From: Acidimicrobiaceae bacterium
GTDB taxonomy: Bacteria; Actinomycetota; Acidimicrobiia; Acidimicrobiales; Aldehydirespiratoraceae
Reading direction: 5' to 3'
NCBI GenBank assembly: GCA_009843735.1
Contig: VYCW01000076.1
Location: 1-40,090 of the forward strand
DNA: 40,090 nucleotides
Shown: positions 8,790-25,353 of the stretch, piece by piece
Layout: each line of letters opens with the position of its first letter
Numbering within the stretch: position 1 is the first letter of the stretch
The notes under the pieces: generated by a model
What the model saw: only the letters and a program-made list of their open reading frames with translations
Database searches by the model: none
What the model was told of the DNA's origin: nothing
Made by a program: the position numbers and the translations under genes

Positions 8790-8790
8790 C

Positions 8791-9105
8791 TCAGCCCTTC
8801 AGCATCGACACGTCGTCGGTGGTGGCCCCGGCACGCCGCCGGTTGATGGCCACTACCAGGGCGAGACCGATCACCACTTCAGTGGCCGCCACCACCAGCA
8901 CGAAGAACACCGCGACCTGGCCGCCCACGTCGTTGAGGCCGGCTCCGAGGGCCACGAAGGTCACGTTGACCGCGTTGAGCATCAGCTCGACGCACATGAA
9001 CATCACCAGCGGGTTGCGGCGCACCAGCAGCCCGACGGCCCCAATGATGAACAGCGCGGCCGCGAGGGCCAGGTACCAGCCGGTGGTCAGTCCGCTCAGG
9101 TCCAT
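8791..9105 (-). CDS. nuoK: NADH-quinone oxidoreductase subunit K
   Basis: A 104-aa membrane subunit with three helices. The conserved acidic residues lie in FMCVELMLNAVNVTFVAL and AATEVVIGLALVVAI, the Glu pair needed for coupling in NuoK. ATG 9105 (MDLSGLTTGW) matches the family start; the frame is open upstream to 9171 but that part is Pro/Gly-rich and overlaps nuoJ. It begins 16 nt after the nuoJ stop and is followed 1 nt later by nuoL. Confidence 0.96.
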   Translation of the reverse strand: MDLSGLTTGWYLALAAALFIIGAVGLLVRRNPLVMFMCVELMLNAVNVTFVALGAGLNDVGGQVAVFFVLVVAATEVVIGLALVVAINRRRAGATTDDVSMLKG

Positions 9106-9121
9106 GGCTCGCCCGACCCCG

Positions 9122-10340: not shown

Positions 10341-10341
10341 G

Positions 10342-11616
10342 TCAGGCCCTCTCCTCGACAGGGTCGGAAGGCTCGTCGGCGCGGGCGGCCTCGCGGTCAC
10401 GGGCACGGCGTCCGCTTCGCACCGCCCGGACCAGCAGAAGGGCCGCTCCGGCGAACACCAGCAGCGAAACGACGGTGACCGCGGCCTCGTTCCAGCCGCG
10501 CTCGCGGCCAACCTCCAAGGCGGTGAGGAACAGGAACCAACCCAGCGCCACCGGTATGAGCGCCTTCCATCCAAGGTCCATGAGCTGGTCGTAGCGGAAC
10601 CGGGGCAGCGTGGCCCGCATCCACACGAAGCAGAACAGCAGCACGAACAGCTTGATGAAGAACCACACCACGCCCCAGGCCCAGGCAAGGCCGAAGCCCC
10701 CGATCTCGCTGACCAGCGCGGGGCCGGAGGGACCGCCCAGGAACAACGTGACGATGATGGCCGACATCGTGATCGTGTTCATGAACTCGGCCAGGAAGAA
10801 CAGCGCGAAGCGGATCGACGAGTACTCGGTGTGGAAGCCGCCCACGAGCTCCTGCTCGGCCTCGACCAGGTCGAACGGCGGGCGGTTGAGCTCCGCGGTC
10901 CCCGCGATGGCGAACACTATGAACGGCACCAGGCCGGTGACGATGATGTTCCAGCGCGGGATTATGCCGAAGTAGCCCTCGGCTGCTTGGGCCACCACCA
11001 TGTCGTGGGTGGACAGGCCCCCGGTGACCAGCACGATGGACGCCACGGCCAGGCCCAGAGCGGCCTCGTAACTCACCATCTGCGCCGAGGCCCGCACCGA
11101 CCCCAGCAGCGGGTACTTCGATCCCGACGACCAGCCGGCCAGCATCACTCCGTAGACGGCCACCGAGCTCATGGCCAGGAACAGCAGGATGCCCACCGGC
11201 GGGTCGGCCACCTGGAGATAGGTGATGCGACCCCACCACTCGACCTCGCCGGCGCGGCTGTTGAAGTCCCCGCCGAGCGGGACGATGGCGAAGGCCAGGA
11301 ACGCGGGTATGAGCGACAGGTAGGGCGCCAGCTTGAACACGAACCGGTCGGACCGGTCCGGAACTAGGTCCTCCTTGAAGAAGAGCTTGATGCCGTCGGC
11401 CATTGTCTGGAGAACGCCGAAGGGACCGGCGATGGTGGGTCCGAAGCGCTGGTGCATCCCTCCCAGGAGCTTGCGCTCGAACCAGATCATCAGCATCACA
11501 GCCACGAGCAGGAAGGCGAAGGCAACCACCACCTTGGCCAGGGTCAGCAGGACCTCTACCAGCCCGATGTCGCCGGCCAGCATGGGATCGGCAGCCAGCA
11601 CGAGGTGGCCGGTCAT
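10342..11616 (-). CDS. nuoH: NADH-quinone oxidoreductase subunit H
   Basis: A 424-aa membrane subunit that forms the quinone-binding chamber with NuoB and NuoD. Family markers are RFGPTIAGPFGVLQTMADG, KYPLLGSVRASAQMVSYE and the acidic loop PPFDLVEAEQELVGGFHTEY. About eight helices are visible. ATG 11616 has GGGTGGAG a few bases upstream; an in-frame GTG at 11637, seven codons earlier and closer to the nuoG stop, is the alternative. The C-terminus has a charged Arg/Glu-rich tail of about 30 residues. Confidence 0.95.
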   Translation of the reverse strand: MTGHLVLAADPMLAGDIGLVEVLLTLAKVVVAFAFLLVAVMLMIWFERKLLGGMHQRFGPTIAGPFGVLQTMADGIKLFFKEDLVPDRSDRFVFKLAPYLSLIPAFLAFAIVPLGGDFNSRAGEVEWWGRITYLQVADPPVGILLFLAMSSVAVYGVMLAGWSSGSKYPLLGSVRASAQMVSYEAALGLAVASIVLVTGGLSTHDMVVAQAAEGYFGIIPRWNIIVTGLVPFIVFAIAGTAELNRPPFDLVEAEQELVGGFHTEYSSIRFALFFLAEFMNTITMSAIIVTLFLGGPSGPALVSEIGGFGLAWAWGVVWFFIKLFVLLFCFVWMRATLPRFRYDQLMDLGWKALIPVALGWFLFLTALEVGRERGWNEAAVTVVSLLVFAGAALLLVRAVRSGRRARDREAARADEPSDPVEERA

Positions 11617-11644
11617 CGGACTCCACCCGCCCGCCACGAGCGCG

Positions 11645-14224
11645 TCATCGGGCCTCCACGCTGACCACGGTGACGTCGGTGGCCGCGGCGATCAGCGCGT
11701 TGGCGGGCGCGCCCGGTGCCATCCAGTCCACCCTCAGCGAGCCGGGAGGTACGCCGGCATCGGTGGTCAGGGTCGCCTCAATATGACCGAAGTCCGAGAC
11801 GACCCGCACTGCCGTGCCTACGTCGATGTCGATGCGGTCTGTGTCCGCCGGGTTGATGCGGGCGGTGGCGGCCGGGGCAAGACCCCGGCTCGAGGGGCAG
11901 TGGCGCAGCATCACGCCGTCGTCGTACATGGTGCGGGTCGCTACCAGCAGGAAGCCCTCCGGGGGTGGGTCCTCATGCTCGTCCTCCCGGCCGGCGGGTC
12001 CTGTCGCAGGCTCCGTCCGGCCGACGGGGCTTCGCCCCATTGTCGGCCGCCCGGACCTGCGCCACCCCCCGGCCTTGCCGGTCGCGCCGGAGGGCGATGC
12101 CAGCAGCACGCCTTCCATTGGGTTCTGGGTCAGGGCATCCTCTGTGATCGGGGCATGTGCTTGGGATATCTGGGCTAGTTCGGCTCTGATGGCTTGGGGG
12201 GAGTCGAGGTTGCTGGTCGAGCCGGGCTCCAGCCGCTCACACAGGTCCGCCGCGATCATCCAGTCGGCGCGCGCCGTTCCCGGCGGCGTCACCTTGCGGC
12301 TCATGACGCTGACCCGGCCCTCGACGTTGGTGAACGTGCCGTCGCACTCGGTGGGGCCCGCGGCGGCCAGAACGACGCGGGCCGCGAGGGAAGCCGAGTC
12401 GTTGACGAACAGATCGACGGCCAGGACACAGGCGGCACCTCGAAGGCCCCGGTAGGCCAGGTCGCGGTCGACGAAATCGTTGAGCGGATCGGCGCCCAGC
12501 AGCACGAGCACGTCGATGTCTCCGCGTGCGGCTGCCCTGAGGACGCTGGTCGCGTCCAGTCCCAACGAATCAGGCAGCCGGGGCCAGGACCCGGCCAGCA
12601 GCGCGCCGTCGCCGGCATCCTCGAGCTGCATCCGGCCCGGAACCAGTCCCGGAGCCAACCCCGCTTCGAGCGCCCCCATCAGGTTGCCTCTGCGCAGCGC
12701 AGGCAGGAAGCGCGCCGACGGAAGCCTCGACAGCTCCCCGGCCGCGGCGTCGCCGATGTCGGCCGGCTCGGCCAGCGACATGCGGCCCAGCACCACGACC
12801 ACCCCGTCGCCGGCCTCCCGCAGGCTCCGGGCCGCCGCTTCGATCTCGGAGCCGTCCCCCGACGTACCGGGCGCGGTGGCCGCATCCACCAGTGCAGCCA
12901 CCAGCCGGGCGGTCGTGCCCGGGCTAGGACGCAGGGAGTGCGCGGCCAGATGCGACAGGCCGGTGGCGTGCGGAGTGACCTCGATCAGCTTCACGCCGTC
13001 GTTGACGATGGCGTGGCGCAGCCGCAGGTACAGCGTCGGCAGCTCCTCCTTGGGATCGGGGCCGACCAGCAGGACCGTGCCCCCGGGGCGGCAGGCATCA
13101 TCGATCGTGGCCCTCGGCAGGCCGAGAACGAGATCGGGGTCCAGACCGTCGCCGAGCTGGGAGTCGACGTTGTCGGTACCGACCACGCCCTTGGCCAGCT
13201 TGGCCCACATGTACTGCGCCTCGTTGGTCATCCTGGCCCCACCCAGCACCGCGACCCGCTCGGGCGAGGTGGCCCCCAGAGCGTCGGCCACCGCCTCGAG
13301 AGCCTCCCCCCATCCGGCCTGGCGGAACTCGCGGTTGTCGCCGTCCACCGCGTCCCTGAGCATCGGGGCTGATAGCCGCTCGGGGCTGTTGAGAGCCTCG
13401 AATCCGAATCTCTCCTTGTCCGACAGCCAGCCCCAGTTGACGGCATCGGCGTCGGCTCCCAGCACCCGCAGGACCCGGTTGCGGGACGCCTGAACCGCCA
13501 CCCGCGACCCCAAGCTGTCCACCCAGGCAGTGGACAGCGTCTCGGTCAGGTCCCAGGGACGGGCCTTGAAGCGGTAGGGCGCCGCGGTGAGCGCGCCCAC
13601 CGGGCATATCTGAACGGTGTTGCCCGAGAAGTACGACGCGAAGGGCTCGTCGGTGAATGTGTTGACCTCGGTGTGGTTGCCGCGGCCCATGAAGTGGATC
13701 AGGGCGTCACCGGCCACCTCGTCGGCGAACCGGGTGCAGCGGTCGCACAGGATGCAGCGCTCCCGGTCGAGGAAGACGGTCTCGCTGATGGCGATGGGCT
13801 TCGGGAAGTGGCGCTTCTCCTCCACAAAACGGGTCTCGCCCGGGCCGTAGGCCATGGTCTGGTCCTGCAGCGGGCACTCGCCGCCCTTGTCGCAGACGGG
13901 GCAGTCGAGCGGGTGGTTGATGAGCAGGAACTCCAGCACGCCGTCCTGGGCCTTCTTGGAGGCATCGGAGTCGGTGGACACCTTCATGCCCTCGCTCACC
14001 GGCACCATGCACGACGGCTGCAGCCCGAAGCCGCGCCCGGTGTCCACCTCCACCAGGCACATGCGGCACATGCCCACCGGACTCATGCGGGGGTGGTAGC
14101 AGAACCTCGGTATGTAGGTGCCGCTGCGCTCGCAGGCCGCGATCAGCATCTCGCCGGGGCGCGCCTCTACCGCGACGCCGTCCACCGTGATCTCCACAGT
14201 CGTTTCGGACTCTGTCGCGGTCAC
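11645..14224 (-). CDS. nuoG: NADH-quinone oxidoreductase subunit G
   Basis: An 859-aa iron-sulfur subunit of the NADH-oxidising arm. The [2Fe-2S] ligands are C42, C53, C56 and C72; the His-Cys cluster ligands are H104, C108, C111 and C117; the [4Fe-4S] ligands are C157, C160, C163 and C207. The rest is a molybdopterin-oxidoreductase-like domain without an obvious active site, as usual in NuoG. Around residues 705-752 a low-complexity Gly/Arg/Pro-rich stretch (encoded near 11970-12110) interrupts this domain and contains an imperfect DNA hairpin. The GTG start overlaps the nuoF stop (GTGA). The frame is open far upstream across nuoF, but that part is antisense-free shadow of nuoF in another frame. 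Confidence 0.95.
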   Translation of the reverse strand: MTATESETTVEITVDGVAVEARPGEMLIAACERSGTYIPRFCYHPRMSPVGMCRMCLVEVDTGRGFGLQPSCMVPVSEGMKVSTDSDASKKAQDGVLEFLLINHPLDCPVCDKGGECPLQDQTMAYGPGETRFVEEKRHFPKPIAISETVFLDRERCILCDRCTRFADEVAGDALIHFMGRGNHTEVNTFTDEPFASYFSGNTVQICPVGALTAAPYRFKARPWDLTETLSTAWVDSLGSRVAVQASRNRVLRVLGADADAVNWGWLSDKERFGFEALNSPERLSAPMLRDAVDGDNREFRQAGWGEALEAVADALGATSPERVAVLGGARMTNEAQYMWAKLAKGVVGTDNVDSQLGDGLDPDLVLGLPRATIDDACRPGGTVLLVGPDPKEELPTLYLRLRHAIVNDGVKLIEVTPHATGLSHLAAHSLRPSPGTTARLVAALVDAATAPGTSGDGSEIEAAARSLREAGDGVVVVLGRMSLAEPADIGDAAAGELSRLPSARFLPALRRGNLMGALEAGLAPGLVPGRMQLEDAGDGALLAGSWPRLPDSLGLDATSVLRAAARGDIDVLVLLGADPLNDFVDRDLAYRGLRGAACVLAVDLFVNDSASLAARVVLAAAGPTECDGTFTNVEGRVSVMSRKVTPPGTARADWMIAADLCERLEPGSTSNLDSPQAIRAELAQISQAHAPITEDALTQNPMEGVLLASPSGATGKAGGWRRSGRPTMGRSPVGRTEPATGPAGREDEHEDPPPEGFLLVATRTMYDDGVMLRHCPSSRGLAPAATARINPADTDRIDIDVGTAVRVVSDFGHIEATLTTDAGVPPGSLRVDWMAPGAPANALIAAATDVTVVSVEAR
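12015..12056. repeat. Imperfect palindrome inside nuoG
   Basis: Three nested stems: GTCCGG/CCGGAC at the base (12015-12020 with 12051-12056), CCGAC/GTCGG (12021-12025 with 12042-12046) and GGGGC/GCCCC around a TTC loop (12026-12038). It lies in the part of nuoG that encodes a low-complexity insertion. It may be a relic of an inserted palindromic element. Confidence 0.6.
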
Positions 14225-15678
14225 GACGCGGCTCCTACGGGGACCACTTCGATCGGGATGGGGTCGCGGCGGGTGATCTTGGCCTCGTACTCGTGGCGGA
14301 AGCGGCGGATGGTCGACACCACCGGCGCCACTGCCGACGGCCCGAGCGGGCAGATCGTGGTCTGGCGGGGCGGGAACGGCACCGCCTCCGCACCGTCGTC
14401 GGCGGCGACCGGGTAGGGGCCGGGGCTGATGTTGTCGCCGATGTCGAGCAGCAGGTCGATGTCGGACGGGCGCCCCTCCCCGTCGAGGATGCGCCGCAGG
14501 ATCTGCTCCAGCCAGGTCGTTCCCTCCCGGCACGGAGTGCACTTGCCGCACGACTCGCGGGCGAAGAACTTCACGACCCGCCACGCCGCCCTCACCGCGT
14601 CGGTGGTGTCGTCCATGATCACGATGGCGCCCGATCCCAGCATCGACCCGGCCGCCCCGACTGGGCGGGCCTCCAGCGGCAGGTCCAGGTGGTCCTCGAA
14701 GAACCAGGGAGCCGAGCCCCCGCCGGGGATGAACATCTTCAGCTCGTTGCCGTCGCGGATGCCGCGGCAGAAGTTGTCGCCGTAGATCAACTCCCGGAAG
14801 GTGGTCACCCCGTGCTCGACCTCGTACACCCCGGGGCGGCGGAGGTGGCCCGACACCGCGAACATCCGCGTCCCCGGCGACGACTCCGAGCCGTGTCCCT
14901 TGTAGGCCTCGGAGCCGTTGACCATGAGCCACGGCAGGTTGGCGAGCGTCTCGACGTTGTTGACGATGGTCGGCTGCCCGTACAGGCCTACTGCGGCCGG
15001 AAAGTAGGGCGGCTTGAGGCGGGGCATGCCCCTGCGGCCCTCGAGGCTCTCGATCAGCGCGGTCTCCTCGCCCACGATGTAGGCGCCCGCGCCCCACGCC
15101 ATCACGATGTCCACCGAGAAGTCGCTGCCGCAGACCTGCCGGCCTACGTAGCCGGCCTCGTAGGCGTCGTTGAGGGCGGCCGCGATGCGCTCCTGGGCCA
15201 GGGCCATCTCGCCCCTTACGTACAGGAAGCACTGCTGCAGCCCCAGCGCGTAGCAGGCGATGAGGCACCCCTCTATGAGTTGGTGGGGGTCGCGCTCCAT
15301 GAGCAGGCGGTCCTTGTAGGTACCGGGCTCGCTCTCGTCACCGTTGACCACCAGGTAGTACGGGTGCTTGCCCGGCGGCAGGAAGCCCCACTTGACACCA
15401 GCAGGAAAGCCGGCGCCTCCCCTGCCCAGCAGGGTCGCGGCCCGCACCTCGTCGTGCACCGCGGCCGGCGTCATCTCCAGTGCGGCCCTCAGCCCCTCGT
15501 AGCCGCCGGTGGCAACCGAGCGCTTCAGGGTGAAGGAGTCCTCGTGGACGAACCGGCTCGTGATGAGCTTCGGCCCGTCGTTGAGCACGTAGCCCGGCGC
15601 GTGCTGGAGATAGCCGTCACCGACCGACCGGTCCGGCAGGGGCGCGGGATAGCCGCCGGTCGCGGATGGCGTGCCCAT
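14221..15678 (-). CDS. nuoF: NADH-quinone oxidoreductase subunit F (NADH- and FMN-binding)
   Basis: A 485-aa subunit where NADH reduces FMN. FMN/NADH-site motifs are GRGGAGFPAG (about residues 85-94) and YIVGEETALIESLEG. The N3 [4Fe-4S] ligands are C377, C380, C383 (ESCGKCTPC) and C443 (TICPLGPSA). Between the last helix residues DIGDNI and C443 there are about 20 extra residues rich in Pro and Ala (418-439) that NuoF proteins I know lack. The ATG overlaps the nuoE stop (TGATG) and its stop overlaps the nuoG start, so E-F-G are tightly coupled. Confidence 0.96.
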   Translation of the reverse strand: MGTPSATGGYPAPLPDRSVGDGYLQHAPGYVLNDGPKLITSRFVHEDSFTLKRSVATGGYEGLRAALEMTPAAVHDEVRAATLLGRGGAGFPAGVKWGFLPPGKHPYYLVVNGDESEPGTYKDRLLMERDPHQLIEGCLIACYALGLQQCFLYVRGEMALAQERIAAALNDAYEAGYVGRQVCGSDFSVDIVMAWGAGAYIVGEETALIESLEGRRGMPRLKPPYFPAAVGLYGQPTIVNNVETLANLPWLMVNGSEAYKGHGSESSPGTRMFAVSGHLRRPGVYEVEHGVTTFRELIYGDNFCRGIRDGNELKMFIPGGGSAPWFFEDHLDLPLEARPVGAAGSMLGSGAIVIMDDTTDAVRAAWRVVKFFARESCGKCTPCREGTTWLEQILRRILDGEGRPSDIDLLLDIGDNISPGPYPVAADDGAEAVPFPPRQTTICPLGPSAVAPVVSTIRRFRHEYEAKITRRDPIPIEVVPVGAAS

Positions 15679-16292
15679 CAGCCGCTCGCTCCGGCTTCGT
15701 TGCGGGCCAGCCAGACGGGGGCCTCGCGGGCCTGCTCGGGCGGGACCACCCCGGCCAGGCGCTCGGCCGGTATCGACTGCCGCACCTGGGCCAGGACACC
15801 GTGGCCGGCGATGCCGGTCCGGCCGGCGCGCAGGTCCTCGACCAGGCCGTCGAAGTCAGCTGGGGTCACACGGCCGCGATAGCGGTAGTTGACCTGCAGG
15901 CACGGGGCCTCGGTGCAGGCCGCGATGCACTCCGCCTCCTCGACTGTGAACATGCCGTCGTCGGTGGTGCCGCCCACCTCCACGTCCAGCGACTCGCAGG
16001 CGTGCTCCAGCAGCTCCTCGCCGCCCCACAGCAGGCACGAAATGTTGGTGCAGACGTTCACGAGGTAGGTGCCCACCGGCTCGAAGCGGAACATCTCGTA
16101 GAAGCCGGCTGTTCCCTTCACCTCGGCCGGGGTGGCCCCCACCAGTTCTCCGACACGGCGCATGGCCTCGTCGGTGAGGTACCCGTCCTGAGCCTGGGCG
16201 AGGTGCAGGAGCGGTATGAGAGCCGATCGGGGCCGGGGGAACCAGCCGATGATCTCGCCGGCCAGCGCCTCGTTGGCAGGACTGAGCGTCAC
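15678..16292 (-). CDS. nuoE: NADH-quinone oxidoreductase subunit E ([2Fe-2S])
   Basis: A 204-aa thioredoxin-fold subunit holding cluster N1a. Ligands are C81 and C86 (CTNISC, Cx4C) and C122 and C126 (CIAAC, Cx3C), all present. GTG 16292 follows GAGGCGAG with good spacing. The open frame continues upstream to 16430 but that part translates the repeat-rich nuoD-nuoE spacer. Unusually for this operon, it is separated from nuoD by 195 nt instead of overlapping; the gap contains duplicated segments. A tail of about 40 residues follows the core. Confidence 0.95.
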   Translation of the reverse strand: MTLSPANEALAGEIIGWFPRPRSALIPLLHLAQAQDGYLTDEAMRRVGELVGATPAEVKGTAGFYEMFRFEPVGTYLVNVCTNISCLLWGGEELLEHACESLDVEVGGTTDDGMFTVEEAECIAACTEAPCLQVNYRYRGRVTPADFDGLVEDLRAGRTGIAGHGVLAQVRQSIPAERLAGVVPPEQAREAPVWLARNEAGASG

Positions 16293-16304
16293 CGGCTCGC
16301 CTCG

Positions 16305-16388
16305 GGCATGGACAGGCGGCGGACGCCGGTGCCGGGACGAATGGGCCTCACCGATCGACCTCCGGCATGGACAGGCGGCGGACGCCGG
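16305..16388. repeat. 25-nt direct repeat upstream of nuoE
   Basis: Two identical 25-nt copies, 16305-16329 and 16364-16388, 59 nt apart. Each starts GGCATGGACAGG and ends GACGCCGG. The first copy lies just upstream of the nuoE ribosome site. Confidence 0.85.
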
Positions 16389-16502
16389 CGCTCGACTTGC
16401 GAGCGAGTAGGGCGAAGCCCGTGCGAGCAAGCGAGTGCCAGTGGCCGGTGCCGGGACGAAGGACGCCGGTGCCGGGACGAACGGGCCTCACCGGTCGACC
16501 TC
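16321..16502. repeat. 42-nt duplication that includes the nuoD stop codon
   Basis: 16461-16502 (nuoD tail, stop and 3' flank) is repeated at 16321-16362 with only two substitutions, offset 140 nt. The repeated unit includes the nuoD stop (TGA at 16488-16490). A shorter 17-nt word starting GCCGGTGCCGGG occurs three times, at 16325, 16444 and 16465. Together with the 25-nt repeat this shows serial duplication of the nuoD/nuoE junction. Confidence 0.88.
16389..16442. repeat. Segment inserted between the duplicated nuoD/nuoE junction copies; possible diverged repeat copy
   Basis: This piece lies between the two 42-nt copies and is not itself duplicated. It has a small GGGC-GAA-GCCC hairpin and near-repeats TGCGAGCGAG and TGCGAGCAAG. 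The stretch GCCCGTGCGAGCAAGCGA (from about 16418) resembles the right half of the dispersed repeat found elsewhere in the window (GCCCGTGAGCAAAGCGA at 29688), so it may be a decayed copy. Confidence 0.35.
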
Positions 16503-17795
16503 GCCCATGATCGGGTCGACCGAGGAGATGATGGCCACACCGTCGGCGATCAGGCCGTTCTGCATCAGGTGCGGAAGGGTCTGGAGGTTGATGAAGCTCG
16601 GGGCCCGCACATGCACCCGGTACGGCACCGAGGTGCCGTCGCTCACTAGGTAGACGCCCAGCTCGCCGCGGGGTGACTCGACCGCGGCGTAGGCCTCGCC
16701 GGGCGGCACCTTGAACCCCTCGGTGAAGATCTTGAAATGGTGTATCAGCGCCTCCATCGAGGCGTCGATGCGCGACCGCGGCGGCGGGGTCACCTTCTTG
16801 TCCTGGACCCGGTAGTCGCCCGAGGGCATGGCCTCGATGATCTGAGCGACGATGCGCAGCGACTCCCGGATCTCGTTTAGCCGTATGGCGTAGCGGTCGT
16901 AGCAGTCGCCGTGAGTGCCCACGATGACGTCGAAATCGACCTGGTCGTAGAACAGGTAGGGCTCGTCGCGCCGCAGGTCCCAGGCCATTCCCGCGCCCCG
17001 CAGGATCGGTCCGGTGGCCCCCAGCGCGAGGGCCTCGGCCACACTGATCACGCCAACCCCCTGGAGCCGCTCGCGCCAGATGGGCTGCCCGGTGAGCAGG
17101 GTGTCGTACTCCTCGAGGCGGGGCTCGATCAACTCGATCAGCCGGGCCACGTCGGTGCGCCAGTCCGCGGGCAGGTCGGCGGCCACCCCGCCGGGCCGGA
17201 TGTAGTTGTGGTTCATCCGCAGGCCGGTGACCTTCTCGAAGAAGCGCAGCACCTCCTCGCGCTCGCGCCACCCGTAGATCATCATCGACACCGCGCCCAG
17301 GTCCATGCCGTTGGTGGCCATGAACAGCAGGTGCGAGCTGACCCGGTTGAGTTCGCACATCAGCATGCGGATCCACGTGGCCCGCTCGGGCACCTCGATG
17401 CCCAGCAGCCGCTCCGTGGCCAGCGAGAAGGCCAGCTCGTTGAACAGCGGCGAGGCGTAGTCCATGCGGGTCACGTTGGTGCCGCCCTGCAGGTACGTGA
17501 GATTCTCACCGGTCTTCTCCATGCCGGTGTGGAGGTAGCCGATGACCGGCTTGGAGCGCAGCACGGTCTCGCCGGAGAGCTCCAGCATCAGCCGCAGCAC
17601 GCCGTGGGTCGACGGGTGGGACGGACCCATGTTGAGGAGCACCAGCTCGTCGTCGCCGGGGTCGTCGGGGTCGCCGCCGATCTCCGCGGCCTCGGCCTCC
17701 GACATGCGCAGCACCGCGGAGGGCTCTCTCCGGCTGACCCGGTCAGCGCCTGAAGGGGCGACGCCAGTCGTGCTCATCGCGGTCTGAAGCGTCAT
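16488..17795 (-). CDS. nuoD: NADH-quinone oxidoreductase subunit D
   Basis: A 435-aa subunit of the quinone-binding module, related to hydrogenase large subunits but lacking the metal-binding cysteines, as expected. Markers are LNMGPSHPSTHGVLRL, GYLHTGMEKTGEN, RGAGMAWDLRRDEPY and the C-terminal DPIMGEVDR. The quinone-site His lies in the first motif. The ATG overlaps the nuoC stop (ATGA). An in-frame ATG at 17777 is an alternative. About 50 residues before the core form an N-terminal extension. The stop codon lies inside a 42-nt duplicated segment. Confidence 0.96.
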   Translation of the reverse strand: MTLQTAMSTTGVAPSGADRVSRREPSAVLRMSEAEAAEIGGDPDDPGDDELVLLNMGPSHPSTHGVLRLMLELSGETVLRSKPVIGYLHTGMEKTGENLTYLQGGTNVTRMDYASPLFNELAFSLATERLLGIEVPERATWIRMLMCELNRVSSHLLFMATNGMDLGAVSMMIYGWREREEVLRFFEKVTGLRMNHNYIRPGGVAADLPADWRTDVARLIELIEPRLEEYDTLLTGQPIWRERLQGVGVISVAEALALGATGPILRGAGMAWDLRRDEPYLFYDQVDFDVIVGTHGDCYDRYAIRLNEIRESLRIVAQIIEAMPSGDYRVQDKKVTPPPRSRIDASMEALIHHFKIFTEGFKVPPGEAYAAVESPRGELGVYLVSDGTSVPYRVHVRAPSFINLQTLPHLMQNGLIADGVAIISSVDPIMGEVDR

Positions 17796-18280
17796 CTGAC
17801 GTTGGAAGCGGCCTTGAACTGGACCGGTATCCGGCCGCTGTCGTAGTCCTTGCGCAGCGGATTGCCCGGCCAGTCCTCCGGCATCAGGATCCGCGACAGG
17901 TCCGGGTGCCCCTCGAAGGCGATGCCGAACATGTCGTAGACCTCGCGCTCGAGGCTCTCCGAGCCGGGCCACAGATCGAACAGGGTGGGCAGGGCCGGGT
18001 CGTCGGCGGAGACCTGCACCCGCATGCGCAGGCGCTCCAGCCGCGCGTGCGACATCAGGCTGGCCACCACCTCGAACCGCTCCGGCTGCACCCCCTCGGG
18101 CAGGCTCCGGTCGGCGCCGTACGTCAGGTAGTCGACTGCGGTGAGGTCGACGAGCTGGTCGAAGCCGTCGGCTCGGGCCGCGGCAGCCACGTCGAGCCAT
18201 TGGCTCGGTGACGGATGGATCACGGCCTGGCCGCGGGACGGCCGGCCGTCCCCGACCGGGGCCCCGTAGCGCTCAGTCAT
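17792..18280 (-). CDS. nuoC: NADH-quinone oxidoreductase subunit C
   Basis: A 162-aa peripheral-arm subunit. The 30-kDa-subunit signature is clear: [18 protein letters not shown] followed by [17 protein letters not shown]. The length is at the short end for a stand-alone NuoC. ATG 18280 overlaps the end of nuoB by 8 nt, and the stop overlaps the nuoD start. The frame is open upstream to 18346 within nuoB, but that part is shadow sequence. Confidence 0.95.
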
Positions 18281-18872
18281 GCTCGCGGCGGATCGTGGCG
18301 GTCGCCGTCTGGCCGTCGATCTGTTGCACCGTGATGCCGGCACCACCGGACTCGCCAGCGGCTCGGCGGGCCAGCAGCTCCCCGGACAGGATCTCTTGGT
18401 GGAGCGTGAAGATGGCGTGCATCAGCGTCTCGGGGCCGGGCGGGCAGCCGGGCGCGTACACGTCCACGGGCACCACCTGATCGACACCCTGCACGATGGC
18501 GTAGTTGTTGAACATGCCCCCGCTGGAGGCGCAGACCCCCATCGAGATGACCCACTTGGGCTCCATCATCTGGTCGTAGATCTGGCGCAGCACCGGGGCC
18601 ATCTTCTGGGACACCCGGCCGGCCACGATCATCAGGTCCGCCTGGCGGGGCGAGGCCCGGAACACCTCCATGCCGTAGCGGGCGAGGTCGTAGTGGGCTG
18701 CCCCGGTTGCCATCATCTCGATGGCGCAGCAGGCCAGGCCGAAGGTCGCCGGCCAGCAGCTGCGCGCCCGGGACCACTTGACCAGGCTCTCCAGCCTGGC
18801 CGTCATGAAGTTGTGCTGGATGCCCTCCAGGCCGCGTTCCCGCAGCTCCTCGATCTGGTTCCCAACCCCCAT
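18273..18872 (-). CDS. nuoB: NADH-quinone oxidoreductase subunit B (cluster N2)
   Basis: A 199-aa subunit carrying the terminal [4Fe-4S] cluster N2 that reduces quinone. Ligands C48-C49 (LACCAIEMM), C114 (MGVCASSGG) and C143 (PGCPPGPE) have the spacing known from the family. ATG 18872 overlaps the nuoA stop by one base and is preceded by GGAGGTGA, the best ribosome site in the operon, located inside the last codons of nuoA. A Gly/Ala/Thr-rich tail of about 40 residues follows the core. Confidence 0.97.
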
Positions 18873-19375
18873 CAGGTCACCTCCTGCGGTTCCGGGAGGC
18901 GACCCTCGAGACCCACCCGGCGCACGGTGCTGCGAGCGGTCCGGGTCTCCGACACCATGGGGTCGGAGACCACGGCTGAGGCCTCAGCGTCGACGGCGGA
19001 GCGCCGGTGCCTCGACGCCGGCCCCCATTCGAGTGCCCCCGCTCCGATCAGGTACACGAACGACTCGAACACCGCGAACGTGAACACCAGCAGGGCCACC
19101 AGCCCGAACAGCCCGAGCCCCCCACGGGCCACGGCATAGGGGTAGAACAGCACGATCTCCACGTCGAAGACGATGAAGATCATCGCCACCAGGAAGAACC
19201 GCACCGGGAAGCGCTCCGGGGTCTCCCGGGAGGGAACGATCCCGCACTCGTAGGGATCCAGCTTGGGAACGGTCGGCCGGCGAGGCGCCAGCAGCCCCGA
19301 TGCCACGAAGCTCCCGGCCGCGAACAGCGCGGCCAGCAAGAACAGCCCCAGCAGCGGTAGGTACTGGCCGAGCAC
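18872..19375 (-). CDS. nuoA: NADH-quinone oxidoreductase subunit A
   Basis: A 167-aa membrane subunit with three helices. Family landmarks are DPYECGIVP (C44) and [20 protein letters not shown], with acidic D71 and E73, plus E104 in the third helix. Typical NuoA is about 120 residues; here about 45 hydrophilic residues follow GALEWGP, overlapping the nuoB ribosome site. The start is GTG 19375 without a clear ribosome site or TANNNT box. That start codon lies inside a 15-nt direct repeat flanking an inserted segment (19383-19505), so the original junction with the upstream gene seems to have been only three bases. Confidence 0.94.
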
Positions 19376-19520
19376 GGCTCAGAGGCCCCGCAGATTGACG
19401 AGCGAACCCGGTCCGTACGGGCGGGGCCGTGGCCCGAGCGGCCCGTGAGCGCAGCGAACAAGAGCGGGAATGACCCCGCCGCACCGCGACACGCTCTCGA
19501 GCAATCCGAGCACGGCTCAG
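19368..19520. repeat. 15-nt direct repeats flanking a 123-nt insert before nuoA
   Basis: CCGAGCACGGCTCAG occurs exactly at 19368-19382 and 19506-19520. Each copy holds the junction TGA-GCC-GTG on the minus strand: the right copy contains the stop of the 341-aa gene, and the left copy contains the nuoA start. The 123 nt between them contain a copy of the dispersed repeat. This is what an insertion with target duplication would leave. Confidence 0.85.
19399..19469 (+). repeat. Dispersed repeat copy 1
   Basis: Shares GAGCGGCCCGTGAGC and AGCGAACAAGAGCGGG with the copies near 23544, 29190 and 29671 (one or two changes in the latter). The left half contains a stem of ACGGGC (19417-19422) with GCCCGT (19441-19446), enclosing GGGCC-GT-GGCCC. 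It also shares its left flank (AGCGA.CCCGG..C.TACGGGCG) with the copy near 29190. Confidence 0.85.
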
Positions 19521-20542
19521 GTGCCGGCTGGCGTGCCGGCCTCTCGCTGGCGCCAGGCCAACTTGTCGCGCTCGTGCAGGAACAGGCACAGCGCCACGAA
19601 GATGCACAGCGAGCCGAGCGTCACCAGCGCGGGCTTGAGGCGAAGGTTGCCCAGGTCTCGGATCATGATCACCGAGATCACCGGCTTGGACTCGTCGACC
19701 ACGGGTCGGGGTGGCGGCTGGCCGGGAACGAGCGGCTGATCGATCACCTCCTGGACCTGCACCACGCCGTAGCGGGTGGGATGGGTGATGGTCAGGGCGG
19801 TGCGAATCTGGGTCCAGATCCGGTCCCAGCGATTCGGGTTGTCGGGCAGGCCCCGCTTCCCGCCGACGGTGTAGGCGTCTAGCAGCTTGAAATCGTCCTG
19901 GGAGACGAACGTCAGGTCCGGGCTCTCCAGCAGCATCGCCACCGCCGATGCCTGCGCTTCGCCCGCCTCGGCGGTGGACAGCAGCTCCCAGCCGCCTAGT
20001 GCGATCCGGCCAGTCGCCTCTGCATCCGCGATCAGGCCCGGCGACACCGAGGCCAGCTCCGACAGCGTCGTGGCCTGGTTGCGGGCCAGTTCGTCGGCGA
20101 CCAGTTCGTCGATCTCGGAGCCGCTGAGCCCCTCGATCTGGTCTGGCGTGAGCGTGTCGCGGGTGACGACACCGAACTCGGCCTGCGCCACGGGGTCGTC
20201 GGAGTTGACGACGAGCTCGAACGCGGTCGGGAGCTCGGGGAGGTCGGGCAGCACTCTGGCCTCCTCCAATGCTGCCGCGTCGAGGTCGCCCACGTTGATC
20301 TCCTGCAGCTGCCAGGTCGGGGTGTCGCCGGCCCAGCCGATGCCGTAGATCCACCACACCGCGGCCATGATCACCATCCAGCCGAAGAAGCCGGCAGTGG
20401 CGACGAGGGTTCCCAGCCGGGTGCCGGTGTTGAGGGCGAGCAGCAGCCAGACCGAGCCCATCAGCACGATCACGCCCGCGAACACTGCCATGAAGCCGCG
20501 GATCTCGGGATCCCACGCGAGCCCGGCGATCACATGTTCCAT
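19517..20542 (-). CDS. Membrane protein of unknown function between cytochrome c and nuoA genes
   Basis: A 341-aa protein I cannot assign. It has two N-terminal helices (about residues 16-38 and 44-67), a hydrophilic domain of about 230 residues rich in Asp, Glu and Leu, and one C-terminal helix (about 306-326) ending in LHERDKLAWRQREAGTPAGT. The large domain is probably outside the membrane. There are no cysteine, heme or metal motifs. ATG 20542 has AAAGGA about 9 nt upstream, and the start is 1 nt after the diheme cytochrome c stop, so it belongs to the cytochrome operon. An accessory or assembly subunit of the quinol-oxidising complex is the likeliest role, judged from position only. Confidence 0.78.
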   Translation of the reverse strand: MEHVIAGLAWDPEIRGFMAVFAGVIVLMGSVWLLLALNTGTRLGTLVATAGFFGWMVIMAAVWWIYGIGWAGDTPTWQLQEINVGDLDAAALEEARVLPDLPELPTAFELVVNSDDPVAQAEFGVVTRDTLTPDQIEGLSGSEIDELVADELARNQATTLSELASVSPGLIADAEATGRIALGGWELLSTAEAGEAQASAVAMLLESPDLTFVSQDDFKLLDAYTVGGKRGLPDNPNRWDRIWTQIRTALTITHPTRYGVVQVQEVIDQPLVPGQPPPRPVVDESKPVISVIMIRDLGNLRLKPALVTLGSLCIFVALCLFLHERDKLAWRQREAGTPAGT

Positions 20543-20543
20543 C

Positions 20544-21803
20544 TCAGAGGTTCCTTTCGAACGCGACGATGGCGTCGATCTGGTCCTGGGTGAGTGTCGC
20601 CGGGTAGGTGATCTCCAGGTCGTCGTCGGTGCGGGGCCCGAAGCCGGGCATCTGCCCGTTGCCTCCGGAGCCGCCGCGGCCGTAGGTCTGCCCGATGGTC
20701 TGGCCAGCGGAGATGAAGTCGGAGTGCAGGGCCGCGGTCTCGAACTGGTCCAGGGTGCTGCCGCCGGTCAGGTTGGGCCCGAAGAAGCCGCCGCCGACGT
20801 TGTAGGACTGCAGGATCGGCCCGGCATGGCCGTCGATGCTGTCATCGCCGTCGGTGGTGGCATCGAACGACCAGCCGTACGTATGGCATCTCGCACAGCT
20901 GTAGGTGCCGCCCGCGGCCGCGTTGTTGAACAGGATCTCGCCGTAGGTCCGGTAGAGCTCGCTGCCGGGCGTCTGGCCGGAGGCGAGCAGCTCCAGTCCG
21001 GCCCGCCTGATCCCCTCGGGGCTGCCGGCCAGCGACTGGTCGGCGGCCAGGGCCATGGAACGGGCCTCCTCGACGGCTGAGTCCACCGCGCCGAGCCATT
21101 CGTCCACGACGGGATCGTCAGCGGCAACCCCTAGATGCTCGGCGATGCCCTCGCGCACCCCGGTGTCGACGATGTCTCGCAGCTCCGACTCGGGAATCTG
21201 GATGCGCCTCATGTAGCGGATCAGGTACTCGATCTGCTGCTCGGTGAGGGGGCCGCCGCCGGGGGCGCCCCACGCCGGCATCACGTTGTTGCGGCCGTAG
21301 TTGAGCACGTGGCGCACCTCGTCCTCGCTGTGGCGGGACAGCACGGTGTTGAGCGCCGGCGCCGCCCAGGCCACCGTGGCCACGAAGTTGCCCTCGGCGT
21401 CGGTGATGGTGACCGGCGCGGAGCCGCCCGTTCCCTCGGCCCCGTGGCACTGCTGGCAGTCGGAGCCCTCGGTGTAGAGTTCGCCGCCGCGGTCGGCGAA
21501 GATGCGGTCGGTGTCCTTGATCAGACCGTCGTGGCGCCCGGGTTCGCCCAGCCAGTAGAGGGGCAGCCCCACCCCGATGATGGCCAGCATGGCCAGCCCG
21601 GCCAGAAGCGACTTGTCGAGCTTGGGGCCCTCCAGCTCCTCGTCCTCCAGGTAGGGCTTGCGGTTGGCGGCCAGCTCGATCTCGCTGCCGACCTCGTCGC
21701 GGGAGGCGCGCGCGTTGAGGATCAGGTACACGACGTACCCGACGAAGACGATGGCCAGGATGACGAACCCGATGGTTCTCTGCGTTGAGGCGGCTAGGAG
21801 CAT
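20544..21803 (-). CDS. Membrane-anchored diheme cytochrome c of the bc/b6f-like complex
   Basis: A 419-aa protein with two N-terminal helices (about residues 10-29 and 64-84) and two cytochrome c domains. Heme 1 binds CQQCH (116-120), with M175 in NNVMPAWG as the probable sixth ligand. Heme 2 binds CARCH (303-307), with M385 in GQMPGFG. It probably takes electrons from the Rieske protein and passes them to a terminal oxidase, like the diheme QcrC of actinobacteria, though QcrC usually has one C-terminal anchor and this one has two N-terminal helices. It starts 38 nt after the Rieske stop. No good ribosome site is seen at ATG 21803. Confidence 0.88.
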   Translation of the reverse strand: MLLAASTQRTIGFVILAIVFVGYVVYLILNARASRDEVGSEIELAANRKPYLEDEELEGPKLDKSLLAGLAMLAIIGVGLPLYWLGEPGRHDGLIKDTDRIFADRGGELYTEGSDCQQCHGAEGTGGSAPVTITDAEGNFVATVAWAAPALNTVLSRHSEDEVRHVLNYGRNNVMPAWGAPGGGPLTEQQIEYLIRYMRRIQIPESELRDIVDTGVREGIAEHLGVAADDPVVDEWLGAVDSAVEEARSMALAADQSLAGSPEGIRRAGLELLASGQTPGSELYRTYGEILFNNAAAGGTYSCARCHTYGWSFDATTDGDDSIDGHAGPILQSYNVGGGFFGPNLTGGSTLDQFETAALHSDFISAGQTIGQTYGRGGSGGNGQMPGFGPRTDDDLEITYPATLTQDQIDAIVAFERNL

Positions 21804-21841: not shown

Positions 21842-22717
21842 CTAGTGGCCGGTGGCCTGGCCGATGCAGGCCGGCCCCTCGGCTTCCTGGCCGGTGGTGT
21901 TGGTGCCGATGGGCGGTCCCTGGATGATGGTGCCGGTGTCGACGGTGAGCGAGCCGTCCGCACCGATCTCCACCGCGAAGCGGTCCATGCCCCGCGGTGC
22001 CGGCCCGCCCCGCTTCTCGCCCACCTGGTTGTACTTCGAGCCGTGGCACGGGCACTCGAACCACTGCGAGGTCACGCATTCGGGCACCCGGCAACCGAGA
22101 TGGGGGCACTTCTGGTACAACGCCACGATGCCGCCGTCGAGCCCCAAGTCGTGGCCCGCGGTCATCCCCGCCAATTCGGGCGCCGAATAGGTGGCAGTCG
22201 CCTTCTCCACCGCGCCGTTGGGGTACTCGGTGAGCCACATCCGGCCCTCGGGCTTGTACAGGAACCCCGAGTTGTCGCGGATCTCGGCCAGCAGATCGCT
22301 CACCAGGCCCACCTTGATCTTGGAGCCGAAGCCGCTGGCGCCCTGAGGCCACAGGAAGGCGATGCACGCCACACCGAACCCCGACAGGCTCAGGCTCATC
22401 AGCATCACGATCGTCCGGTTGAAGAACTGGCGGCGGCTCACGCCGATCGTCTCGGGATCGGGCGGGACGTAGGGCGCGGGCGGTCCACCGCTGTCCGTCG
22501 GCGCCGGCGCGCCGCCAGCCCGGGCCGCGGCCGCGGCCTTCTCGACCTCCCGGCCGGTGGGTGGCGCCTCGGCCCGCAGGACCACCGATGACCGGTCCCG
22601 GCTGCGGGTCTCGCGCGACAGCATGCCGATGGCGGCGTCCGACTGGCGCCGGCGTACCGCGGCGAGCACCGCCACGATGGCCAGCACAGCCAGCACAGCC
22701 ACAGCGACATAGATCAT
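21842..22717 (-). CDS. Rieske [2Fe-2S] protein of the bc/b6f-like complex
   Basis: A 291-aa protein. Cluster ligands are C204 and H206 (KCPHLGC) and C222 and H225 (ECPCHGS), with C209 and C224 available for the usual disulfide. A first helix spans residues 1-20. A twin-arginine motif SRRQFF (94-99) precedes a second helix (about 102-123), so the cluster domain is probably exported folded by the Tat system. An Ala/Pro-rich linker joins the two helices. ATG 22717 has GGAGG at good spacing. It accepts electrons from quinol at the Qo site by family function, and its place between cytochrome b and cytochrome c genes fits. Confidence 0.93.
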   Translation of the reverse strand: MIYVAVAVLAVLAIVAVLAAVRRRQSDAAIGMLSRETRSRDRSSVVLRAEAPPTGREVEKAAAAARAGGAPAPTDSGGPPAPYVPPDPETIGVSRRQFFNRTIVMLMSLSLSGFGVACIAFLWPQGASGFGSKIKVGLVSDLLAEIRDNSGFLYKPEGRMWLTEYPNGAVEKATATYSAPELAGMTAGHDLGLDGGIVALYQKCPHLGCRVPECVTSQWFECPCHGSKYNQVGEKRGGPAPRGMDRFAVEIGADGSLTVDTGTIIQGPPIGTNTTGQEAEGPACIGQATGH

Positions 22718-22733: not shown

Positions 22734-23519
22734 TCATAGCTCGAAGAACAGGCCCGCTTCCCAGGGGAAGACGAAGTTGAAGCCCGGGCCCCTGAAGAAG
22801 GAGCCGATGATCACCAGCACTGCCCAGAACATCAGGTGGATGGTCATGAGGCTGATGGCGAACTTGCGGTCCTCAGGCCTCTTGGACGGGTTCTTGTCGA
22901 TGTAGGGCGCCAGCATCAGGGCCAGCAGCCCGATGCCGGGGATGGTTACGCCCGCCACCATCGGATGGAACATCGTCAGCAGCTCCTGCAGGCCGAGGAA
23001 GTACCAGGGGGCCTTGGAAGGGTTGGGCGTCTGGTTGTAGTTGGCCAACTCCAGCAGCGGGGCGTTCACGAAGATCGAGAAGATCAGCGTGAACGCGGTG
23101 ATGAACAGCGCAGCCACGAACTCCACCACCAGCAGGTGCGGCCACACGTGCACCTTGTCCTGCGGCTTGGATTTCACGTCCTGGATCGAGCCCGACTTGA
23201 CCACCGTCAGCAGGCGCTGGGTGTGCCCGCCGGGGCCGGTGGCCGGCATCTCCGGCGCGGTCGGCGGGGCGGCTACGGCCACTCCGCCGCCGGCGGCCGA
23301 GGCGGCTTCCGGGGCGTCCCCGGACGCCTGGGCGCGGGCGGCCACCGAGCGCTCCAGCAGGTGCGGCGGGATCTTGCTCGCCGCCTGTTGCTGGGCCTCG
23401 GAAGCGCCGTCGCCTGAGCCTGCGGCTGCGGGCCCGCCGGCCGCAGCCGCCTTGGCCGCCTCAGCCTTGGCCCGGGCCTCGTCGGCCCGCTTGCGCAGAT
23501 GCTCGGGGATCTCCACCAT
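22734..23519 (-). CDS. Cytochrome b C-terminal half (subunit IV-like)
   Basis: A 261-aa protein. Residues from about 118 match the C-terminal half of cytochrome b (subunit IV/PetD-like), with three helices and the region TPNPSKAPWYFLGLQELL, where bc complexes carry the Qo-site PEWY motif; the Glu is not present here. The first 110 residues are a hydrophilic Ala-rich extension with two copies of a short pattern: IPEHLRKRADEARAKA at 4-19 and IPPHLLERSVAARAQA at 50-65. The start ATG 23519 follows AGAGG. It is separated from the N-terminal half by 121 nt containing a dispersed repeat. Confidence 0.9.
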   Translation of the reverse strand: MVEIPEHLRKRADEARAKAEAAKAAAAGGPAAAGSGDGASEAQQQAASKIPPHLLERSVAARAQASGDAPEAASAAGGGVAVAAPPTAPEMPATGPGGHTQRLLTVVKSGSIQDVKSKPQDKVHVWPHLLVVEFVAALFITAFTLIFSIFVNAPLLELANYNQTPNPSKAPWYFLGLQELLTMFHPMVAGVTIPGIGLLALMLAPYIDKNPSKRPEDRKFAISLMTIHLMFWAVLVIIGSFFRGPGFNFVFPWEAGLFFEL

Positions 23520-23520
23520 C

Positions 23521-23644
23521 GCCTCTACCCCTACGCCGCGCTTGCCCGCTCTTGTTCGCTGCGCTCACGGGCCGCTCGGGCCACGGCCTCGCTCGGTGCG
23601 TTGCGTACGTTCATGAATCGCTCCATTTTCCGCTCGGCCTCTAC
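23521..23644. repeat. 8-nt direct repeats flanking a 108-nt insert between the cytochrome b genes
   Basis: GCCTCTAC occurs at 23521-23528 and 23637-23644. On the minus strand this is GTAGAGGC, which holds the TAG stop of the upstream gene in one copy and the ribosome site of the downstream gene in the other. The segment between contains dispersed repeat copy 2. Confidence 0.65.
23544..23592 (-). repeat. Dispersed repeat copy 2
   Basis: Reverse-oriented copy. On the minus strand it reads through GAGGCCGTGGCCC, GAGCGGCCCGTGAGC and AGCGAACAAGAGCGGG, matching copies 1 and 3 over about 46 nt. The ACGGGC left arm of copies 1 and 3 is replaced here. Confidence 0.85.
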
Positions 23645-24435
23645 AGCGGACCCGAGATGCCGCCGTCCTTGCGGACCCGCCAGAAGTGGACGGCCAGGAA
23701 GATTACGAGCACGAACGGCAGCATCAGCACGTGCAGCACGTACCAGCGCAGCAGCGTGTCCGTTCCGATCTCGACCCCGCCGAGCAGCACGAACCGCACC
23801 TGGTCGCCGAACACGGGGGTGTAGCCCATCATGTTGGTGCCCACGGTCACCGCCCACAGAGCCAACTGGTCCCACGGCAGCAGGTACCCGGTGAACGACA
23901 GCAGCAGCGTCAGCTTCAGCAGGATCACGCCGATGACCCAGTTGAACTCCCTGGGCGGCTTGTAGGCCCCGTGGTAGAACACCCGGGCCATGTGCAGGAA
24001 CACGGTGATCACCATGAGGTGGGCGCCCCACCGGTGCATGTTGCGGACCAGCAGGCCGAAGGTCACCGAGGTCTGAAGGATGTAGATGTCGTCCCAGGCC
24101 TGGGCCGCGGTGGGGCGGTAGAAGAACATCAGGAAGATGCCGGTGACGGTCTCGAGGATGAACAGGAAGAAGCTGAGGCCGCCCAGGCACAGGGTGTAGC
24201 TCACCTTCACGGCGTGACGCTTCACCTTCACGGGGTGAAGGTGGTACAGCACGCTGTTCATGATCACGTAGGACCGGTTGCGGGGGCTGTCGGTGTAGCC
24301 CTTGCGGAAGATCGACCCGGGCCGGAAGATCGAAGTCCAGGCCTGCGAGCCCTGGACCTGGTCGGCCAGGGTGCTCATCTGATCGGCTATGCGCTCCGGA
24401 AGCGGCTTCCTGCGCTCTTCTGTGTCGATGGCCAT
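23641..24435 (-). CDS. Cytochrome b N-terminal half (cytochrome b6-like)
   Basis: A 264-aa four-helix cytochrome b that looks like cytochrome b6 rather than the single-chain cytochrome b usual in actinobacteria. Heme ligand pairs are H134/H148 (14 apart) and H235/H250 (15 apart); the 15-residue spacing in the last helix is a b6f-type trait. The end [12 protein letters not shown] closely resembles the b6 end RKQGISGPL. C83 in TLCLGG sits where b6 carries the Cys that binds heme c-i/c-n covalently. ATG 24435 has AGGAGA about 13 nt upstream. It oxidises quinol together with the Rieske protein and subunit IV by family function. Confidence 0.93.
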
Positions 24436-24484: not shown

Positions 24485-24901
24485 CTAGGCGAGGCGCATC
24501 CCGTAGCCGTAGCCGTGGGAGTTGGTTCGCTGGTGGGGGTCCCCTCCCGGGGGAGGATCGCCCATCTTTCCGAGAATGATTACACCGGTGGGGCAGCGAT
24601 CCACACACAGCGCGCAGCGGGTGCACACGTCGTCGTCGATGGTGAAGATGACCTTGTCGGCAGGATCGATGCCGGGCAGCTCGGTGCCGACGGCCTCGTC
24701 CACCGCGTCGGGCGTGACCATGAAGATGCACTTCCAGGGGCAGATGTCCACGCAGCCCTCGCACATGATGCACTCCGACTGGTCTATGTGGATGAACTGC
24801 TTGGGCTTGACGGCCGCCGAGAGCCAGGCCGCGTCCACCTCCTGCAGGACATAGTCGTCCCGGAACTCCGGCATCGGGGGGTTGGCGTCGGTGGTGGTCA
24901 C
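24485..24901 (-). CDS. Dicluster (2x[4Fe-4S]) ferredoxin-like protein of the cytochrome operon
   Basis: A 138-aa soluble iron-sulfur protein. Two cluster motifs are visible: C44-C47-C50-C54 (ECIMCEGCVDICPWKC, with an extra C58) and C93-C96-C99-C103 (CTRCALCVDRCP). About 30 residues separate the motifs, longer than in simple ferredoxins, and there is a 35-residue tail rich in Gly and His. GTG 24901 overlaps the stop of the preceding membrane-protein gene (GTGA), so the two are coupled. Its place directly before cytochrome b suggests an electron-transfer subunit of the quinol-oxidising complex or a donor to it; this is inference from context. Confidence 0.88.
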   Translation of the reverse strand: MTTTDANPPMPEFRDDYVLQEVDAAWLSAAVKPKQFIHIDQSECIMCEGCVDICPWKCIFMVTPDAVDEAVGTELPGIDPADKVIFTIDDDVCTRCALCVDRCPTGVIILGKMGDPPPGGDPHQRTNSHGYGYGMRLA

Positions 24902-25353
24902 GCCTCTGAGCCCTCCCGCACCAGCGGGCGCCCGAAGCTCGAGACCTCGACGGCCTCGGCAGCCTCGGCCTTCTTGCCCCGGTTCTGCCACACCAGGAAC
25001 ATCCAGACGTGGAGGCCCACGCCCACGACGTATATGCCGCTGGCGAGGATGTCCCGGATCACCACGTAGGTGATGGTGAACGGGAAGCTGCCGCCCTGCG
25101 CCTGAGCCCTCAGGATGCCCCCGGGTCCCACGAAGAGCTTGTCGGTGCGCCAGTTGAGCTCGTTGTCGGCCCAGGTGAGGAACTGGTGGGGCACCACCCC
25201 GTAGACCCAGAACATGGCGAAGAACACGATCATCGACCCGAACATGGCCTCGCCCCATGTGACCGGGGCCCCGACCGGCCTGCGCTGCATGTAGGCGAGG
25301 ATGGCGCCGATCAGCACGACCGTTACCAGGATGGACAGGGCGAAGGCGACCAC
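24898..25353 (-). CDS. Three-helix membrane protein, first gene of the cytochrome/complex I cluster
   Basis: A 151-aa protein I cannot place in a known family. Helices lie at about residues 2-20, 34-55 and 104-124, with the stretch VVPHQFLTWADNELNWRTDK between helices 2 and 3 and a charged C-terminal tail. His residues near the helices (for instance in VPHQF and GLHVW) could bind heme, but no motif proves that. GTG 25353 has GAGGAG upstream. It overlaps the ferredoxin gene, so the two products probably act together, perhaps anchoring the ferredoxin to the membrane complex. Confidence 0.8.
   Translation of the reverse strand: MVAFALSILVTVVLIGAILAYMQRRPVGAPVTWGEAMFGSMIVFFAMFWVYGVVPHQFLTWADNELNWRTDKLFVGPGGILRAQAQGGSFPFTITYVVIRDILASGIYVVGVGLHVWMFLVWQNRGKKAEAAEAVEVSSFGRPLVREGSEA

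Follow-up and report, generated by a model that had tools for sequence, protein, structure and literature searches.

The window, the whole stretch of 40,090 nucleotides that was analysed, carries on its minus strand a cluster of seven genes around a split cytochrome b, directly followed by the nuo operon (complex I), whose genes were named by eye from the sequence. The genes and the sites discussed below are as follows.

24898..25353, minus strand: TM3, a three-TM membrane protein that opens the cluster (GTG start, 151 aa)
24922..24942, minus strand: C-terminal tail motif of TM3, S-S-F-G-R-P-L, residues 138-144 (G141, R142 and P143 invariant in 47 class sequences)
24485..24901, minus strand: FDX, a 2x[4Fe-4S] ferredoxin (GTG start, 138 aa)
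24593..24772, minus strand: cluster-binding region of FDX, C44xxC47xxC50xxxC54 and C93xxC96xxC99xxxC103 (invariant, 40/40)
23641..24435, minus strand: cytochrome b6, the four-helix half of the split cytochrome b (PF00033, E 1.8e-46)
24187..24189, minus strand: Cys83 codon of b6 (CLGG), corresponding to the cysteine that binds haem c_n (c_i) covalently in b6f (invariant, 40/40)
22734..23519, minus strand: subunit IV, the C-terminal half of cytochrome b, with a long N-terminal extension (PF00032)
23121..23123, minus strand: Glu133 codon of subunit IV, corresponding to Phe40 of b6f (Glu in 39/39; alignment with Phe40 by eye)
21842..22717, minus strand: Rieske [2Fe-2S] protein (PF00355, E 5.5e-10)
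20544..21803, minus strand: dihaem cytochrome c in place of cytochrome f (two CxxCH; PF00034/PF13442)
19517..20542, minus strand: P7, a membrane protein of 341 aa without a family, at a conserved position closing the conserved cluster
3760..19375, minus strand: nuo operon (complex I), directly downstream of P7

The stop codon of TM3 and the GTG start of FDX have 4 bp (GTGA) in common, and b6 is the next gene. The original prediction of a membrane protein overlapping a 2x[4Fe-4S] ferredoxin in front of cytochrome b was confirmed, at the place first given. As this arrangement recurs at every inspected FDX operon locus and none of the eight ligand cysteines varies among 40 FDX sequences, it is not due to chance. 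Cytochrome b is divided between b6 and subunit IV, which match PF00033 and PF00032, and the c-type subunit is a dihaem membrane cytochrome c for which no match to the cytochrome f family was obtained in Pfam. Among the NCBIfam models b6 scored above the cut-off for ExtP only, the b-type cytochrome of selenite/tellurite operons. Neither TM3 nor P7 reached the cut-off of any Pfam or NCBIfam family; P7 is kept across the phylum and is probably a further, so far undescribed subunit. In many relatives the cytochrome cluster also lies near nuoA-D. A second FDX or another cytochrome b match was not found in the genome of the window (140 contigs, 85% complete).

A dispersed repeat of about 50 bp is present in four copies (19418-19468, 23545-23595, 29211-29261 and 29675-29712) that are 92-96% alike and occur in both orientations. 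The copies sit in or beside intergenic gaps, one of them between b6 and subunit IV. The core of the repeat was found in four copies in a near relative (L102) and was absent from the 18 further class and phylum loci compared.

FDX contains two CxxCxxCxxxCP motifs and matched Fer4_7, Fer4_10 and Fer4_21 of Pfam above the cut-off. Besides the eight ligands, an additional cysteine (C58) was present in 39 of 40 sequences. The C-terminal tail, GYxYGxRL, is conserved, and conservation spans the full length of the protein, tail included. With a mean identity of 63% in the class, FDX exceeds subunit IV (56%) and the Rieske protein (43%), and only b6 is more conserved. Since a signal peptide or TM segment was not apparent, FDX must be cytoplasmic. 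It is distinct from NuoI, as it reached 37.8 bits against a cut-off of 113.05 for the NCBIfam NuoI model, and a separate nuoI-like match lies inside the nuo operon. An AlphaFold2 model of FDX, calculated from an alignment of 40 class sequences that was too uniform, had a pLDDT of 37, and mirror-tree correlations of the cluster subunits were not above those of the nuo controls.

For TM3, AlphaFold2 (47-sequence alignment) predicted helices at residues 2-24, 33-64 and 96-123 with a mean pLDDT of 87.6. Neither a sequence match in the PDB nor a fold match by Foldseek (best E 3.2) was obtained. According to the positive-inside rule the topology is probably N-out/C-in, with both loop 1 and the C-terminus facing the cytoplasm, which would place the conserved tail on the same side of the membrane as FDX. 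TM3 is on average 30% identical within the class, where its tail follows the pattern S-x-[YF]-G-R-P-L; outside the class the tail mostly ends with GGYK, GGYR or KGY. Such a motif was found outside the class at 18 of 20 loci with FDX versus two of five without it (p 0.04), and three class genomes without FDX still keep the tail. A contact between the tail of TM3 and FDX is therefore a hint and no more, because of these three exceptions.

The cofactor residues of b6 and subunit IV were surveyed in about 40 class and phylum sequences. The haem b ligands of b6, H134/H148 and H235/H250, are invariant (40/40) and show b6-type spacing. By eye, Cys83 of b6 corresponds to Cys35 of plastid b6, to which haem c_n is covalently attached, and is the predicted attachment site here. 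Glu133 of subunit IV is a candidate for the axial ligand of haem c_n, and a glutamate ligand was reported to confer a low haem c_n potential of around -50 mV (PMC12954380). Judged by these residues, the cytochrome of the window is b6f-like. The Qo motif of subunit IV reads A170-P-W-Y (codons 170-173, 23001-23012) and is devoid of the PEWY glutamate; APWY was seen in all 39 complexes of the FDX type and in all 17 of the sister complex described below.

To follow the genes through the class, 247 genomes were searched with TM3, FDX and b6 (cut-offs E < 1e-100 for b6 and E < 1e-40 for FDX) and tallied by hand. FDX was present in 191 of the 199 genomes with the A-type b6 compared with four of the 48 that lack it or hold a fragment (Fisher 1e-35, a figure that is only descriptive because the genomes are related). 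Five of the eight b6 genomes scored without FDX are accounted for by contigs that end at or inside FDX or b6, and three are true absences; two of the four FDX genomes scored without an intact b6 carry fragments of that b6. The order to which the window belongs includes 23 genomes with no cytochrome b match other than a divergent one (E 1e-20 to 1e-27), presumably of the actinobacterial bcc type, and without FDX and TM3, so that whole lineages lack the complex, TM3 and FDX together.

The order TM3, FDX, b6, subunit IV, Rieske protein, dihaem cytochrome c and P7 recurs across the class. Among 20 distant class loci that were fetched, 18 hold TM3, a full FDX and b6; FDX is missing from one (L065) and broken by a frameshift in another (L080), and at two loci the last gene is missing or the contig stops short. 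Natural fusions of TM3 with FDX or of FDX with b6 were looked for; the one candidate, an apparent FDX-b6 frame in L080, stems from the frameshift in FDX and was rejected. Among the 80 named class loci listed, TM3 precedes and b6 follows FDX wherever the contig reaches. Two apparent exceptions in synteny were rejected as artefacts of ORF calling, as tblastn recovered TM3 in L133 and b6 in L172. The nearest named records among the matches listed are metagenome bins of Acidimicrobiia and Acidimicrobiaceae, and the seven-gene order with FDX is also found in a family with genomes of 0.6-1.1 Mb. In the rest of the phylum, 396 genomes were searched and yielded FDX homologues with E values of 1e-26 to 1e-41. 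At 20 loci fetched from these, TM3, FDX and b6 stand in order in all 20 and the rest of the cluster follows in 19, the remaining one (L186) lying at a contig edge. A plasmid location of the relatives was looked for and not found. Both genes had been proposed to belong with the cytochrome complex, and synteny, co-occurrence and co-absence with this b6 bear this out; the TM3-FDX pair was never found away from cytochrome genes, an occurrence that had been named beforehand as speaking against the proposal.

Within this pattern the two genes behave differently. In eight genomes of five families TM3 stands directly before b6 and FDX is absent (G168, G095 and G077 in the class; G402, G412, G432, G451 and G347 outside it). 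Whole-genome searches did not reveal FDX elsewhere in these eight genomes; weak ferredoxin-like matches (best E 7e-9) were obtained in four, three of them on the same contig as nuo genes. The haem c_n cysteine is kept in all eight. As these genomes retain the complex, TM3 and the cysteine, the complex appears to work without FDX, and the persistence of TM3 beside b6 argues that TM3 is a core partner rather than simply an anchor for the ferredoxin, and that FDX is facultative. The idea of a single 'membrane-bound ferredoxin module', as originally put forward, was consequently not borne out.

Two genomes (G162 and G257) carry a second FDX that stands alone at a syntenic place near lgt, a gene named by eye (L085:7494-7913, minus strand, with L089; L086:7445-7864, plus strand, with L073). 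Within each genome the solo and the operon copy are 99.3% and 99.8% identical, respectively, over little more than the coding region, and the solo copies of the two genomes are 84% identical to each other. From the sequences, the near-identity of solo and operon FDX looks like gene conversion. The solo copies imply that FDX is not produced only together with the complex. In other genomes (e.g. G151) contigs break inside FDX, as would fit assembly on identical repeats, so that solo copies may be commoner than seen.

Several genomes hold a second b6 that is 53-58% identical to the first and belongs to a sister complex (type B; loci L225-L234, L201, L202 and L204-L208). Here b6 is directly preceded by an open frame of 600-800 aa that combines Fer4_20 and Pyr_redox_2 domains with an FDX-like domain at the C-terminus; the closest matches of this protein in the PDB are NfnA, NfnI and the small chains of glutamate synthase. 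A GltD/NfnB-like FAD-NAD(P) domain fused to an FDX-like domain thus occupies the gene position of FDX, and in phylum genomes that carry both complexes this fused domain is the next best FDX match. The sister b6 is followed by subunit IV, the Rieske protein and cytochrome c; TM3 and P7 were not detected at the sister loci. The haem c_n cysteine is absent in 17 of 17 sister complexes, and Glu133 of subunit IV is replaced by His in the same proportion (17/17). For the Rieske/b complexes of anammox bacteria, a chain of n-side [4Fe-4S] clusters that connects cytochrome b with FAD and NAD(P) was reported (PMC12954380), and with its n-side FAD/NAD(P) oxidoreductase subunit the sister complex resembles that layout. 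By analogy, the fusion supports the idea that an FDX-type domain beside b6 may act as an electron wire, and a link of the complex to electron exchange on the n-side, for which ferredoxin or complex I had originally been suggested as possible partners, gains support from it. Since the sister complex is devoid of the haem c_n cysteine, such wiring need not use haem c_n.

Starting from the gene order, the co-occurrence, the invariant cofactor ligands and the FDX-like fusion in the sister complex, all of which the sequences show, we favour, with a probability of about one half, a seven-subunit b6f-type menaquinol:cytochrome c oxidoreductase in which FDX would be a peripheral subunit on the n-side and TM3 a small core subunit in the membrane. 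FDX would sit over cytochrome b6 and subunit IV near haem c_n, both its binding and its docking site being inferred, and the cytoplasmic tail of TM3 may help it to dock. Through its two [4Fe-4S] clusters, acting as a short wire, electrons would pass from a soluble carrier of low potential to the n-side haems and, at the Qn site, into the menaquinone pool, a route and direction that we likewise infer, as postulated for ferredoxin-dependent cyclic flow through b6f, where haem c_n is the postulated entry point of ferredoxin (PMC9342900). More tentatively, and with odds slightly against the statement as a whole, Actinomycetota might possess widespread respiratory b6f-type complexes in which a ferredoxin subunit of their own connects the low-potential electron pool of the cytoplasm with the n-side haems. 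This would be a respiratory, gene-encoded version of the path from ferredoxin to b6f that was postulated for cyclic photosynthetic flow, and a reduced counterpart of the sister and anammox complexes with their link to NAD(P)H. As for the electron donor, FDX showed no association with genes for 2-oxoacid:ferredoxin oxidoreductase, which were found in 16 of 23 genomes with and 16 of 23 without FDX; the donor is therefore not simply this enzyme.

The solo copies and the losses make a soluble, mobile FDX, co-expressed as a dedicated donor or acceptor and not bound as a subunit, the strongest rival, although we consider it rather unlikely. The solo copies near lgt, with their near-identity within and looser identity between genomes, indicate a supply that is not tied to the operon, the assembly breaks inside FDX fit further such copies, and FDX was lost without loss of the complex. 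A freely diffusing carrier would be harder to reconcile with the strict TM3-FDX-b6 position across a phylum, with conservation that extends over the full length including the tail, and with the finding of no FDX in genomes that have only a bcc-like cytochrome b. The same losses, in which the catalytic subunits stay, would also suit a redox sensor or an assembly or structural factor without a part in electron transfer. This is improbable, as the eight cluster ligands are invariant across the phylum and the sister complex fuses an FDX-like domain to an electron-transfer flavoenzyme.

Electrons might also flow in the opposite direction, with bifurcation of menaquinol such that one electron passes to the Rieske protein and cytochrome c and the other via the low-potential haems to FDX, providing reduced ferredoxin for biosynthesis or CO2 fixation, in analogy to the NAD(P)H formation proposed for anammox complexes. 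The FAD/NAD(P) architecture of the sister complex, for which quinol-driven formation of NAD(P)H was proposed (PMC12954380), speaks for this, as does Salinilacustristhrix flava EGI L10123 (L166), which carries the FDX operon and was reported to fix CO2 by a ferredoxin-requiring cycle, the roTCA cycle with POR and OGOR (PMC11697166). However, the reverse direction from quinol to ferredoxin would be thermodynamically harder, and a haem c_n at or near the potential of menaquinone would shunt electrons to menaquinone. Moreover, 2-oxoacid:ferredoxin oxidoreductase was not found in several genomes that carry FDX and are 95-99% complete, and FDX occurs in streamlined genomes, so we give bifurcation only a slim chance.

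Among environmental actinobacteria it is common for the quinol-oxidising complex of respiration to be encoded by genes that open with a small membrane protein, usually together with a dedicated ferredoxin, and the presence of the latter suggests a built-in wire between this complex and the low-potential electron pool. In the literature outside subscription journals we found neither a description of a ferredoxin gene in this operon nor a test of a wire from ferredoxin to a quinol-oxidising complex in a respiring bacterium. Photosynthesis research has long debated whether ferredoxin can feed electrons directly into b6f at haem c_n, and the operon ferredoxin, the relatives without FDX as a natural control and the sister fusion make this question testable outside photosynthesis. 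The arrangement is also relevant to the energy metabolism of actinobacteria that are abundant and uncultured in marine, freshwater and soil habitats.

In comparison with known systems, FDX is of the same 2x[4Fe-4S] type as NuoI, FwdF, RnfB and PsaC, but differs from other dicluster ferredoxins as a conserved family of its own whose N- and C-terminal extensions are specific to it. The position proposed here for FDX, that of a soluble protein on the n-side of b6 near haem c_n, has a parallel in PetP and in the proposed docking of ferredoxin-FNR on b6f (PMC9342900); PetP, however, was suggested to be a competitor of ferredoxin-FNR there and not to deliver electrons (PMC9342900), whereas FDX has two clusters. 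The actinobacterial bcc complex (QcrCAB) likewise oxidises menaquinol by means of a Rieske protein, cytochrome b and a dihaem cytochrome c in the same phylum, but its QcrB is unsplit, and neither FDX nor TM3 occurs in the genomes whose sole cytochrome b is bcc-like. The models of QcrB, QcrA and QcrC gave 114, 20.1 and 14.7 bits with the window proteins, all below their cut-offs of 500, 275 and 200 bits. The anammox complexes Kuste4569-4574 and Kustd1480-1485 share a b6-like cytochrome, a subunit IV-like protein and an n-side iron-sulfur chain to cytochrome b, but contain FAD/NAD(P) oxidoreductases as well as cytochromes c with six or eight haems, whereas the window cluster has only FDX with its two clusters and a cytochrome c with two haems (two CxxCH) and is devoid of an FAD/NAD(P) gene. 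As far as its genes tell, the complex of the window is hence neither of the bcc nor of the NAD(P)-linked anammox kind. With b6f, including its heliobacterial and Bacillus b6-type relatives, it shares the split into b6 and subunit IV, the haem b histidine spacing of 13/14, the haem c_n cysteine and the Rieske protein, and for b6f an entry of ferredoxin via haem c_n has long been postulated. It differs from b6f in the ferredoxin gene in its operon, the dihaem cytochrome c instead of cytochrome f, the APWY motif, the glutamate at the position of the c_n ligand and the additional TM3 and P7, and a photosystem context was not seen. Without the cytochrome f and PEWY features of b6f, the complex is, by its split cytochrome b and its c_n cysteine, still to be read as b6f-type.
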